Positions 25,922 to 29,291 of a stretch of 64,000 nt of DNA are shown here, one piece after another. The number at the start of each line of letters is the position of its first letter. The stretch's first letter is position 1. Position numbers and translations under genes: made by a program. This stretch comes from Phycicoccus sp. M110.8 (GTDB lineage: Bacteria; Actinomycetota; Actinomycetes; Actinomycetales; Dermatophilaceae): NCBI RefSeq assembly GCF_032464895.1, contig NZ_JAWDIC010000002.1, positions 310,001 through 374,000 on the forward strand. The letters run 5' to 3'. The notes below the pieces were generated by a model. That model did no database searches. It had not been told where the DNA came from and was given only the letters and a program-made list of their open reading frames with translations.

Positions 25922-26998
25922 CTAGAGCCGGGCGGCGACCGCGTCGCCGACCTCGGTGGTGCTGCGTACCGAGCTGCCCCGCTCGGCGAGGTCCGCCGCC
26001 ACGGCCGCCTCGACGCGGGCGGCCTCCTCGGGGCGGCCGAGGTGCTCGAGCAGCATGGCGACGGAGAGGATCGTCGCGGTGGGGTCGGCCTTGCCCTGGC
26101 CGGCGATGTCGGGGGCCGACCCGTGGACCGGCTCGAACATGCTTGGCGCGGTCCGGTCGGGGTTGATGTTGCCGCTGGCGGCCAGGCCGATGCCGCCGGC
26201 GATCGCTGCGGCGATGTCGGTGATGATGTCGCCGAAGAGGTTGTCGGTGACGATGACGTCGAACCGCCCCGGGTCGGTGGCCAGGAAGATGGTGGCCGCG
26301 TCGACGTGCTGGTAGGCCGTCTCGACGTCGGGGAACTCCGCCCCGACCTCCTCGACCGTGCGGCGCCACAGGTGCCCCGCGTGGGTGAGCACGTTGTGCT
26401 TGTGCACGAGCGTCAGGTGCTTGCGCGGGCGCGCCTGGGCGCGGGCGAACGCGTCGCGGACGACCCGCTCGACGCCGAACCGCGTGTTGACGCTGACCTC
26501 GGTGGCGATCTCGTTCGGGGTGCCGGTGCGCAGCGAGCCGCCGTTGCCGGTGTACGGGCCCTCGGTGCCCTCGCGCACGACGACGAAGTCGATGCCGTCG
26601 GGGGCGACCCGCTCGACGGCGAGCGGGCTCTGGACGCCCGGGTACAGCTTGGCCGGGCGCAGGTTCACGTAGTGCTCGAGCGCGAACCGCAGCGGCAGCA
26701 GGACGCCCCGCTCGAGGACGCCGCTCGGGACCGTCGGGTCCCCGATCGCGCCGAGCAGGATCGCGTCGTGGCCGCGCAGCTCCTCGAGCACCGAGTCGGG
26801 CAGCGTCTCGCCGGTGGCGTGCCAGCGACGGGCGCCCAGGTCGTACTCGGTCGTGTGGAACTTGGTTCCGCTGCCGGCCGTGACCGCCTCGAGGACCTTC
26901 AGGCCCTCGGCGACGACCTCCGGGCCGATCCCGTCCCCGCCGATGACGGCGAGGGCGACGGTGTCGGACGACGGGGTCGTGGCGGGGTCGGAGCTCAT
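25922..26998 (-). CDS. leuB: 3-isopropylmalate dehydrogenase LeuB
   Basis: LeuB oxidises and decarboxylates 3-isopropylmalate in leucine synthesis. The 358-residue protein shows [37 protein letters not shown] and the metal-binding [41 protein letters not shown] is the NAD-binding loop. TAGGCT lies seven bases before the ATG (26996-26998), so the transcript is probably leaderless. A TGAGAC-N4-ATATC box, identical in layout to the leuC/ndgR operator, overlaps the -35 position, so repression by NdgR is likely. Confidence 0.96.
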
Positions 26999-27005
26999 GG
27001 GAACC

Positions 27006-27044
27006 AGCCTAGGGATCGTCTTGGCATGCGATATGTGTGTCTCA
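27006..27044 (-). promoter_or_regulatory. leuB promoter with NdgR-type box
   Basis: On the minus strand TAGGCT (27006-27011) is the -10 box, seven bases from the ATG. The expected -35 position (27029-27034) lies inside TGAGACACACATATC (27030-27044), which matches the leuC/ndgR site TGAGACGTCAATATC at 11 of 15 positions. Binding there would block RNA polymerase. Confidence 0.6.
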
Positions 27045-27047
27045 GAT

Positions 27048-27111
27048 GACGAACGGCCCCGGATCGCGGGGATCGGGGCCGTTCGTCGAGGGGTGGCTCT
27101 CAGGCCACCCC
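27048..27111. terminator. Two consecutive hairpins after the 32-codon ORF
   Basis: GGGGTGGC (27090-27097) pairs with GCCACCCC (27104-27111); GACGAACGGCCCC (27048-27060) pairs with GGGGCCGTTCGTC (27075-27087). Both are perfect. They follow the small ORF stop by ten bases on the minus strand and separate it from the leuB promoter. They lack a T-run. Confidence 0.7.
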
Positions 27112-27121
27112 GGGGAGGGTC

Positions 27122-27220
27122 TCAGTCGTCCGAGTGACCCTGCTCGCGCAGGTCCATCGACTCCTGCAGTGCCTGACGCGCCTTCTGGGCCTCTTCGCTC
27201 ATCACGATCGCTTCCTTCAC
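27122..27220 (-). CDS. 32-codon ORF of unknown function downstream of a BCAA-type leader
   Basis: The ORF starts with GTG (27218-27220) preceded by GGGAG, and ends TGA at 27122-27124. An internal ATG (27200-27202) would give 26 residues. The predicted product starts MKEAIVMSEEAQKARQALQE and ends in an acidic HSDD; it is one charged amphipathic helix with no hydrophobic segment. I do not recognise it. The Shine-Dalgarno lies in a hairpin (27227-27242), and upstream are a leader peptide and alternative hairpins, so its synthesis seems designed to respond to branched-chain aminoacyl-tRNA. Two hairpins end the unit. It may be a small regulator, but that is inference. Confidence 0.55.
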   Translation of the reverse strand: MKEAIVMSEEAQKARQALQESMDLREQGHSDD

Positions 27221-27226
27221 GGATCT

Positions 27227-27353
27227 CCCTGTGCGGACAGGGATTCGGGGTCTTGGGGTTTCGGGGGCCAGCCCTGGGTTCCAGGGGGCCGCTGTCAGCC
27301 ACGCACGGCGGGATCTCCGCGGCGAGCTGGCTGACTACCGGAACTCGCCGCGG
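27227..27353 (-). promoter_or_regulatory. Alternative-hairpin leader RNA ahead of the 32-codon ORF
   Basis: Minus-strand arms A CCGCGGCGAG (27344-27353) and A' CTCGCCGCGG (27317-27326) pair perfectly. B GTCAGCCA (27328-27335) and B' TGGCTGAC (27294-27301) also pair perfectly and exclude A-A' in a simple fold. Arm A lies in the leader peptide codons. Further on are CCCTGG/CCAGGG (27272-27286) and CCCTGT/ACAGGG (27227-27242), the last covering the GGGAG of the ORF. The order is that of an attenuator acting on termination or on translation. Confidence 0.6.
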
Positions 27354-27382
27354 CTGCTAAGAATCACCAGCTGCCGCGCCAT
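27335..27382 (-). CDS. Leader peptide MARQLVILSSRGEFR
   Basis: A 15-codon ORF (ATG 27380-27382, TAG 27335-27337) carries Leu-Val-Ile-Leu at codons 5-8, followed by the first hairpin arm. TAATCT (27389-27394) lies six bases before the ATG, so the peptide is probably translated from a leaderless mRNA. Two TGAGAC repeats (27434 and 27453) lie further upstream. It resembles leader peptides of BCAA operons, but no biosynthetic gene directly follows. Confidence 0.65.
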   Translation of the reverse strand: MARQLVILSSRGEFR

Positions 27383-27481
27383 GCTTCGAGATTACGTGGA
27401 CGTCCAACTATCTGGAACCCGTTTCCCAGTGTGTGAGACGCCCGCCGACCCTTGAGACGCCCGTGCCGCTCCCCCACGACG

Positions 27482-27524
27482 ACGTATGCCGTGCGACCCC
27501 GGAGAGGGGCCGCACGGCATACGT
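27482..27524. terminator. Hairpin terminator after serA
   Basis: ACGTATGCCGTGCG-A-CCCC (from 27482) pairs with GGGG-C-CGCACGGCATACGT (to 27524) around a five-base loop, with one mismatch. It lies 21 bases after the serA stop on the minus strand. Each arm contains the abundant octamer GTATGCCG. Confidence 0.75.
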
Positions 27525-27544
27525 GGGTGAGGCGTGGGGAGGCG

Positions 27545-29131
27545 TCAGTCGGCGAGGTCGACGACGGTGACCTCGGCGCCCACCTCGGACGCGATGGCGC
27601 CCAGGACGTCGGCGGGGACCTTGGTGTCGACCGTGAGGGTGACCAGGGCCGAGCCGCCCTGCTCCTTGCGCGCCACCTGCATGCCGGCGATGTTGACCTG
27701 CGCGTCGCCGAGCAGGCGGCCGACCGTGCCGATGACGCCCGGGCGGTCGACGTAGGTGAAGAACGCGAGGTGGTCGGCCAGCGCGACCTCGAGGTCGAAG
27801 CCGTTGACGCCCACGATCTTCTCGATGAGGCGCGGGCCCGTGAGGGTGCCGGACACCGAGACGGTCGAGCCGTCGGCGAGGGTGCCGCGCAGCGTCGTGA
27901 CGTTGCGGAAGTCGGTGCTCGACGGGTCGGTGAGCAGGCGCACCTCGCAGCCGCGCTGCTCGGCGAGCAGCGGGGCGTTGACGTAGGTCACCGGGTCCTC
28001 GGTGACATCGGCGAACAGGCCCTTGAGCGCGGCCAGCTTCCAGATCGACACGTCGTGCTCGGTGATCTCGCCCTGCACGTCGACGTCGAGCTGCACGGGG
28101 ACGGAGCCGGCGAGCGCGGTGAAGATGCGTCCGAGCTTCTCGACGAGGGCGATGCCGGGGCGGACCTCCTCGGGGACCGCGCCGCCGTCCACGTTGACCG
28201 CGTCGGGCACGAGGTCGCCGCCGAGTGCGAGCCGCACCGACTTCGCCACGGCGACGCCGGCCTTCTCCTGCGCCTCGTCGGTCGAGGCGCCGAGGTGCGG
28301 GGTCACGACGACCGACTCGAACTCGAACAGCGGGCTCTCGGTGGTCGGCTCGGTCGCGAAGACGTCGATGCCGGCACCGGCGACCCGCCCCTCGCGCAGG
28401 GCCTCGGCGAGCGCCTCCTCGTCGACGATGCCGCCACGGGCGGCATTGATGATGCGCACGCTGGGCTTGACCTTGGTGAGCGCCTCCTTGCCGATGAGGC
28501 CGAGGGTCTCCGGGCTCTTGGGCAGGTGCACGGTGATGAAGTCGGACTGCTCGAGCAGCTCGTCGAGGCTCACCAGCCGGGCGCCCAGCTGCCCGGCGCG
28601 CTGGGCCGAGACGTAGGGGTCGTAGGCGAGGATCTCCATGCCGAAGCCGCGCAGGCGCTCGGCCACGAGCTGGCCGATGCGACCGAAGCCGACCACGCCG
28701 ACCTTCTTGTCGAGCAGCTCGACGCCGGAGTACTTGCTGCGCTTCCACGCGCCACCCTTGAGGGCCTGGTTCGCGGGGGCGATGTTGCGCGCGGTGGCCA
28801 GCAGCAGGCCCACGGCGAGCTCGGCGGCAGACGTGATGTTGGAGGTCGGGGCGTTGACCACCATGACGCCCGCCTGGGTGGCGGCGGGGACGTCGACGTT
28901 GTCGAGACCCACACCGGCCCGCGCGATCACCTTGAGGTTCTTCGCCGCGGCGACCGCCTCGGCGTCCATCTTCGTGGCGGAGCGGATGAGGACCGCGTCG
29001 GCGTCGGCGAGCGCGGGCAGCAGGGCCTCGCGGGAGGCGCCGTCGACGTGGCGGATCTCGAAGTCGGGCCCGAGGGCGTCGATGGTGGCCGGGGACAGCT
29101 CCTCGGCGATGAGGACGATCGGCTTGCTCAC
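27545..29131 (-). CDS. serA: D-3-phosphoglycerate dehydrogenase SerA
   Basis: SerA oxidises 3-phosphoglycerate with NAD in the first step of serine synthesis. The 528-residue long form has a substrate/nucleotide core (IARAGVGLDNVDVPAAT, VGVVGFGRIGQLVAERLRGF), catalytic residues near INAARGGIVDEEAL, PHLGASTDEAQ, an intervening ASB domain, and a C-terminal ACT domain (FTYVDRPGVIGTVGRLLGDA) for serine feedback. The GTG at 29129-29131 (SKPIVLIAEEL) has AAGGA eight bases upstream and fits homology. It lies between ilvC and leuB, an order shared with Streptomyces. Confidence 0.96.
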   Translation of the reverse strand: MSKPIVLIAEELSPATIDALGPDFEIRHVDGASREALLPALADADAVLIRSATKMDAEAVAAAKNLKVIARAGVGLDNVDVPAATQAGVMVVNAPTSNITSAAELAVGLLLATARNIAPANQALKGGAWKRSKYSGVELLDKKVGVVGFGRIGQLVAERLRGFGMEILAYDPYVSAQRAGQLGARLVSLDELLEQSDFITVHLPKSPETLGLIGKEALTKVKPSVRIINAARGGIVDEEALAEALREGRVAGAGIDVFATEPTTESPLFEFESVVVTPHLGASTDEAQEKAGVAVAKSVRLALGGDLVPDAVNVDGGAVPEEVRPGIALVEKLGRIFTALAGSVPVQLDVDVQGEITEHDVSIWKLAALKGLFADVTEDPVTYVNAPLLAEQRGCEVRLLTDPSSTDFRNVTTLRGTLADGSTVSVSGTLTGPRLIEKIVGVNGFDLEVALADHLAFFTYVDRPGVIGTVGRLLGDAQVNIAGMQVARKEQGGSALVTLTVDTKVPADVLGAIASEVGAEVTVVDLAD

Positions 29132-29291
29132 GTGGGTTCCTTGAAGGGTTCCGGGGGTGGCTGACGGGGGTCTCGGCACCACGCTGTGCCCGCGGCCAGC
29201 ATAGGCGCCCTCTCACCATGTGGATGCGGTCGCTCGACATCTGGAACGCACGTCACACCCGAGGACGGACCCGCCCGCTACCGCGGCGCCG

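Follow-up and report, generated by a model that had tools for sequence, protein, structure and literature searches.

A leader element that appears to sense valine, isoleucine and leucine (V/I/L) and is related to the actinobacterial LEU element probably controls the production of a conserved 26-residue microprotein in Phycicoccus sp. M110.8. The element lies in a 64,000-nt stretch of high-GC actinobacterial DNA (hereafter, the window), whose minus strand carries, in this order, ilvB-ilvN-ilvC, serA, the leader with its microORF, leuB and ilvE. The original prediction, made from the DNA alone, had located the leader and a small ORF between serA and leuB; both genes are confirmed at these places, upstream and downstream, respectively, on the same strand, and the observation made at this interval is real, with the corrections given below (Table 1).

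Amino-acid leaders are normally associated with the control of enzymes of biosynthesis or of tRNA synthetases, and our findings suggest that the target of such a nutrient switch can also be a very small protein. One RNA scaffold occurs twice in the genome, with leucine codons before leuA and with V/I/L codons before the 26-residue protein. The LEU scaffold itself is known; the V/I/L version before leuB, together with its microprotein, appears to be new with respect to the open-licence literature searched.

Table 1. Features of the serA-leuB region, in window coordinates.
Feature	Coordinates	Strand	Evidence
serA	27545..29182	-	Pfam 2-Hacid_dh_C, PGDH_inter, ACT
TTGGACGTCCAC, immediately preceding the -10 box and including the palindrome GGACGTCC	27396..27407	-	majority consensus ggac..cc among 48 relatives
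Putative -10 box TAATCT	27389..27394	-	ends 6 nt before ATG; TANNNT in relatives
Leader ORF MARQLVILSSRGEFR, 15 codons, ATG..TAG	27335..27382	-	sequence; genus dN/dS 1.59, 9 distinct sequences
Regulatory codons CTG GTG ATT CTT (L-V-I-L)	27359..27370	-	rare-codon bias; mixed V/I/L in 50/50 distinct leuB-side leaders
Stem A, 5' arm, within leader codons	27342..27353	-	12 bp with A'; comparative pairing
Stem B, 5' arm, starting in the stop codon, inside the loop of A	27329..27335	-	B-B' co-variation
Stem A, 3' arm (A')	27317..27328	-	comparative pairing
Stem B, 3' arm (B')	27294..27300	-	co-variation; 7 bp with B, 8 if B borrows one A' base
Hairpin C, 2-nt 3' bulge, no U-tract	27266..27290	-	fold -15.9 kcal/mol
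Hairpin D, CCCTGT..ACAGGG	27227..27242	-	fold -7.5 kcal/mol; close relatives only, by inspection
Probable Shine-Dalgarno GAAGGA	27213..27218	-	purine run before ATG in relatives
Microprotein gene MSEEAQKARQALQESMDLREQGHSDD, 26 aa, ATG start	27122..27202	-	dN/dS 0.094, 11 genus genomes; relatives
Hairpin T1, 3' of microORF	27090..27111	-	fold -16.5 kcal/mol; no U-tract
Hairpin T2, 3' of microORF	27050..27085	-	fold -26.8 kcal/mol; no U-tract; similar hairpin in genus relatives by inspection
leuB	25922..26998	-	Pfam Iso_dh 6.8e-96

The microprotein gene

The small ORF was initially proposed to run for 32 codons from a GTG start. A small coding gene is indeed present, but its start and length had to be revised: among 42 distinct ORFs from the window and named relatives, 41 begin with ATG and one with GTG, and a DNA-similarity search recovered the 26-residue frame from ATG in all 11 genus genomes, the six preceding residues not being conserved. 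Since the relatives start at the ATG at 27202, the GGGAG thought to be hidden in a hairpin is probably not the Shine-Dalgarno sequence, for which we take GAAGGA instead; the hairpin concerned (D) occurs in close relatives only, and its proposed role as a switch was abandoned.

Across 25 codons in the 11 genus genomes, pS was 0.169 and pN 0.018 (dN/dS 0.094). The ratio was 0.23 over the 42 distinct ORFs, or 0.28 when the codons demanded by the scan pattern were excluded. These values indicate that the microORF is under purifying selection and encodes a product, in agreement with the earlier view of the controlled product as a separate small coding gene at this locus.

An identical 26-residue protein is encoded in Phycicoccus sp. 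Root101, Phycicoccus sp. Soil748 and Pedococcus sp. 5OH_020, and the other named matches belong mostly to Dermatophilaceae/Intrasporangiaceae. The family core reads A-(L/V)-Q-x-x-(M/L/I)-D-x-R-D. The window microprotein had no match in Pfam or NCBIfam; four variants likewise had no Pfam match and a single NCBIfam row (E 0.13) far below its cut-off, and a comparison with PDB chains gave no match (best E 0.15). One contig labelled Candidatus Saccharibacteria (L121) encodes a microprotein like those of Dermatophilaceae, and this bin label is probably wrong.

Within the family of the window, the microprotein was matched at E <=1 in 113 of 149 genomes, the weakest of which may be chance, and had no match in the other 36. 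At the level of the class, 49 of 394 genomes were recovered with a narrow profile (E 0.1) and 121 of 394 with a broader profile (E 0.02), the weakest rows again being possible chance matches, a distribution that points to diverged microproteins across the class.

Leader codons and RNA structure

The 15-codon leader with its Leu-Val-Ile-Leu run is present as first described. The sequence TANNNT directly precedes the leader start codon in 46 of the 48 upstream regions taken from named relatives, and because this -10-like sequence lies so close to the leader ATG, the transcript is likely leaderless, starting at the ATG itself (27382). A scan for sigma-70 consensus promoters found none in the region or the window. 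The palindrome GGACGTCC, situated just upstream of the -10 box and retained in many relatives, is a possible operator. The NdgR motif, as given in the available part of PMC4340878, was compared with the leader promoter by eye only and showed no convincing match.

Leaders conforming to strict rules (a stem, at least three L/I/V residues and an R-containing tail) were found in 48 of 66 named loci, representing 46 distinct elements, and in all 48 the last branched-chain amino acid (BCAA) codon lies 2-5 nt before stem A. The V/I/L codons of the leaders are of kinds hardly used otherwise, that is, rare. In 41 distinct leaders, which come from many related genomes and hence do not give independent counts, ATT accounts for 37 of 50 Ile codons, GTA for 33 of 66 Val codons and CTT for 20 of 83 Leu codons, compared with 0 of 125, 2 of 317 and 1 of 262, respectively, in seven BCAA and serA-cluster genes of the window.

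The leader peptide itself appears free of purifying selection in the genus (dN/dS 1.59 over 14 codons, nine distinct sequences), as expected if the RNA rather than the peptide is kept. Set against the ratio of 0.094 for the microORF, and with the samples being small, this value argues that the microORF is kept as a protein and that the leader acts in cis. The codons, the stems and the reading frame (the last, for instance, in 11 of 11 genus genomes) are all kept in relatives; their loss had been named as grounds for rejecting the original prediction, which therefore stands on these points.

The 161-nt region folds better than its dinucleotide shuffles (z -2.91), and the first arm of stem A does lie within the leader codons. 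Considered in an 11-pair version over 28 sequences, A-A' is paired in 96.1% of 308 cells, versus 31-66% in slid controls, and shows 20 double-change cells versus 7.2 in shuffled alignments (none of 500 shuffles was as high). Seven of the 11 pairs are invariant; double changes occur at 3 pairs (2.7 in shuffles) and pair types number 6 (6.0 in shuffles), neither count exceeding the shuffles. For B-B', the mean co-variation score over 46 distinct elements was 18.57, versus 16.37 when permuted (0 of 2000 permutations), odds that are too favourable because relatedness was ignored. The co-variation check suggested at the outset came out in favour of the stems.

The two perfect stems had been described as mutually exclusive. 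Both exist, but at most a single base is common to A and B, so that base use does not make them exclusive; since B lies within the A loop and B' is placed 3' of A', they have the topology of a pseudoknot. Folding of the 89-nt leader with A or B forced gave -43.1 and -44.2 kcal/mol, and when the 5' 38 nt were hidden, mimicking a stalled ribosome, B-B' formed in the predicted fold. A bulged hairpin like C was seen by inspection in most of the 48 relatives, in which the region had a mean z of -1.04 (27 of 48 below -1). At gathering score, Rfam identified two tRNAs elsewhere in the window and no relevant match; the microRNA and PreQ1-III rows obtained with an E-value threshold lay below their gathering scores and were treated as chance.

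Relationship to the LEU element and other leaders

The LEU element described before leuA combines a Leu-codon leader and a pseudoknot with a base stem formed between these codons and the leuA Shine-Dalgarno sequence; the only other site reported for it is within a single transposase gene (PMC1262725). We built a model, R1, from 28 leuB-side elements only, and it matched 366 of 394 class genomes at E <=0.01. It found a second, weaker copy in every one of the 11 genus genomes, directly before the same downstream gene, which in the genome of the window is leuA (Pfam HMGL-like, IPMS_D2; element G000:C1:139065-139132). Forty R1 matches hand-picked among the best 150 listed were fetched: 32 lie before leuA, six before leuB (tblastn) and two before an aconitase-family gene. 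In these last two (L182, ~463; L183, ~443), from a family of the same order, the LEU-type element directly precedes the aconitase-family gene, which is taken for leuC.

Within the family of the window, R1 matched 77 of 149 genomes at E <=1e-10, and in 72 of these 77 the match lies 58-126 nt before a microprotein match; the remaining five, all from genus g38, are located elsewhere than beside the microprotein. Of the 66 named loci, 53 have an R1 match 5' of the microORF and 13 have none, counts that are not independent since some of the elements used to build R1 come from this family. An extra match in L107, on the opposite strand (E 0.0086), was taken as chance. Outside the family, leaders are visible by eye in five of 20 fetched microprotein loci (L172, which is the same as L191, L177, L179, L180 and L181), and the four fetched loci of genus g85 carry the microprotein with no V/I/L leader seen by eye. 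In one genus of another family (L185, L186 and L188), a V/I/L leader precedes leuB and an ORF lacking the core motif; instead, these ORFs have EWGPAHLRD and RPDDN in common.

The codons of the two kinds of element differ according to the downstream gene. Among 50 distinct leuB-side leaders, a set that includes 14 class-wide leaders and leaves out L177 and L179-L181, Ile occurs in 50, Val in 46 and LLL in none, whereas among 34 distinct leuA-side leaders LLL occurs in 33, Ile in four and Val in two. The pairing between leucine codons and leuA Shine-Dalgarno sequence, put forward in 2005 as the output of the LEU element, shows co-variation in the 38 leuA/leuC elements analysed (0 of 2000 permutations, relatedness ignored), a set from which six of 44 elements without a strict stem A had been dropped and L213 excluded beforehand. 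In leuB-side elements, the equivalent stem between the codon run and the Shine-Dalgarno sequence of the microORF is unsupported (660 of 2000 permutations).

Both kinds of element have a short leader ORF, a two-stem pseudoknot at the same places and no intrinsic terminator. Both are matched by R1 and occur side by side, one copy of each kind, in all 11 genus genomes. The leuB-side element differs in having V/I/L instead of Leu codons, an extra bulged hairpin, no supported codon-to-Shine-Dalgarno base stem, and a microprotein instead of leuA as its target. The spacing also differs, A' being separated from the microORF match by 85-138 nt in 48 named relatives versus 44-70 nt in 33 of 38 leuA/leuC elements, for which leuA starts were chosen by script, in some cases probably incorrectly (gaps of 94-139 nt in five elements). 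The LEU pseudoknot of two helices is thus shared, by comparison only, and the place of leuA is taken by the microORF and then leuB. Since the leader and pseudoknot are kept and the other defining LEU features tested do not hold for it, we do not file the leuB-side element as a LEU element. The leuA- and leuB-side pair represents a natural experiment on how a leader chooses its amino acid.

A tiny protein gene in a BCAA setting also exists in E. coli, where IlvX belongs to a BCAA operon; it comes from another phylum, and we liken it to the microprotein by gene setting alone. Among the leaders described for S. lividans in the available part of PMC8079986, ilvL (MRTRILVLGKRVG) is likewise leaderless with mixed V/I/L codons, and differs in its sequence, in its hairpins with a uridine-rich stretch and in its target, ilvBHC. 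The leuL1 leader of leuA (MRFGLLLLSCRGEGL; same source) resembles ours in ending with S-x-R-G-E, in being leaderless and in lacking an intrinsic terminator, and differs in having a Leu run only and in controlling leuA. That part of the article lists eight leaders, none of them at leuB. As far as the accessible text of each goes, PMC4046766 assigns leaders to ilvB, leuA, trp and aroF in C. glutamicum, PMC13236596 deals with the Mtb ilvB1 leader, and PMC4833913, considered as a possible account of this locus, concerns another matter. A search of article texts in the open-licence literature found no description of the microprotein or of a leuB-side V/I/L leader.

Proposed mechanism and alternative explanations

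We propose that translation of the probably leaderless transcript would begin at its first AUG. Under a shortage of charged Val, Ile or Leu tRNA, the ribosome would stall on the rare codons (27370-27359) and cover stem A, so that only B-B' could form; when V/I/L are plentiful, it would end at the UAG, and A-A' would form and, with B-B', close the pseudoknot. The choice of fold would set the expression of the downstream microORF, which would most likely be higher under starvation. The sensor parts are well supported by position, conservation, co-variation and rare codons, and from these we infer the stalling, the direction of control and its level (translation or Rho-type termination). From the position of its gene in the ilv-leu setting, we further infer a role for the microprotein in BCAA metabolism.

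More tentatively, and with less than even confidence, the microprotein may be the trans-acting output of a BCAA-starvation switch, made when Val, Ile or Leu is short and tuning an ilv-leu enzyme or regulator. If true, an attenuator would gain a protein messenger reaching beyond its own operon. The function of this small protein, encoded next to leuB across several families within a major bacterial class, is accessible to simple genetics.

The microORF might instead be a coupling or spacer cistron through which the leader controls leuB, the hairpins and the leuB promoter having come later in the family. In its favour, leuB lies downstream in 60 of the 66 named loci (serA upstream in 49 and both in 47; some stretches end at contig ends, and six loci have no leuB within the available stretch) and, on the same strand, in all 20 fetched microprotein matches outside the family, which were hand-picked from the match lists and come from five other families. 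In some families the microORF even abuts or overlaps leuB, with a gap, measured to residue 1 of the window LeuB, of at most ~20 nt in nine loci (L174, L175, L176, L178, L179, L052, L064, L221 and L046). The leader with its microORF thus directly adjoins a biosynthetic gene in other families. However, the microORF-leuB gap in the window is 123 nt and contains strong hairpins, and whereas leuB lies within ~210 nt in 17 of the 20 outside loci, the ORF is retained despite gaps of 1693, 888 and 503 nt in L162, L168 and L173. Together with the selection on the protein implied by the dN/dS of 0.094, this makes a coupling cistron fairly unlikely.

A second possibility, put forward for the LEU element (PMC1262725), is that a protein binds the pseudoknot and that sensing does not depend on the leader codons. 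This would be consistent with the unexpected behaviour of mutated leader codons in S. coelicolor, where, as cited in PMC1262725, altered ilvB leader codons were without effect and changes in the leuA leader did not fit classical attenuation, and also with the stretch GATCCCGCG, which is retained 3' of A' across much of the family. A protein-binding site, however, would need neither rare codons nor a split between V/I/L and Leu codons that follows the downstream gene, and we consider this explanation quite unlikely when compared with sensing of V/I/L by the leader codons.

Ordinary transcription attenuation with an intrinsic terminator would account for the leader, the alternative stems and the GC-rich hairpins, and regulatory codons for the end product are present as in a classical attenuator. 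Two terminator-like hairpins had indeed been described at the end of the transcript, and both are there (T1 and T2), but they do not qualify as intrinsic terminators: no U-tract follows hairpin C, T1 or T2, the terminator scan returned none, and a U-tract terminator exclusive with an antiterminator was not found. GC-rich actinobacteria may use U-tract-free terminators, which a U-tract scan would miss. Taken together, we judge ordinary attenuation improbable. Finally, that the transcript is a small RNA with an incidental ORF, as its short, structured form ending in hairpins might suggest, is very improbable in view of the mostly synonymous substitutions of the ORF in the genus.

Two further features were observed around the locus. 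A long inverted repeat (27469-27541) follows serA, of which it is probably the terminator; it gave microRNA matches in Rfam far below gathering score. Moreover, GTCTCA/TGAGAC motifs are located before leuB (27004-27044) and before the leader promoter (27418-27470), occur also in relatives, and are possibly sites of an IclR-type leucine regulator.
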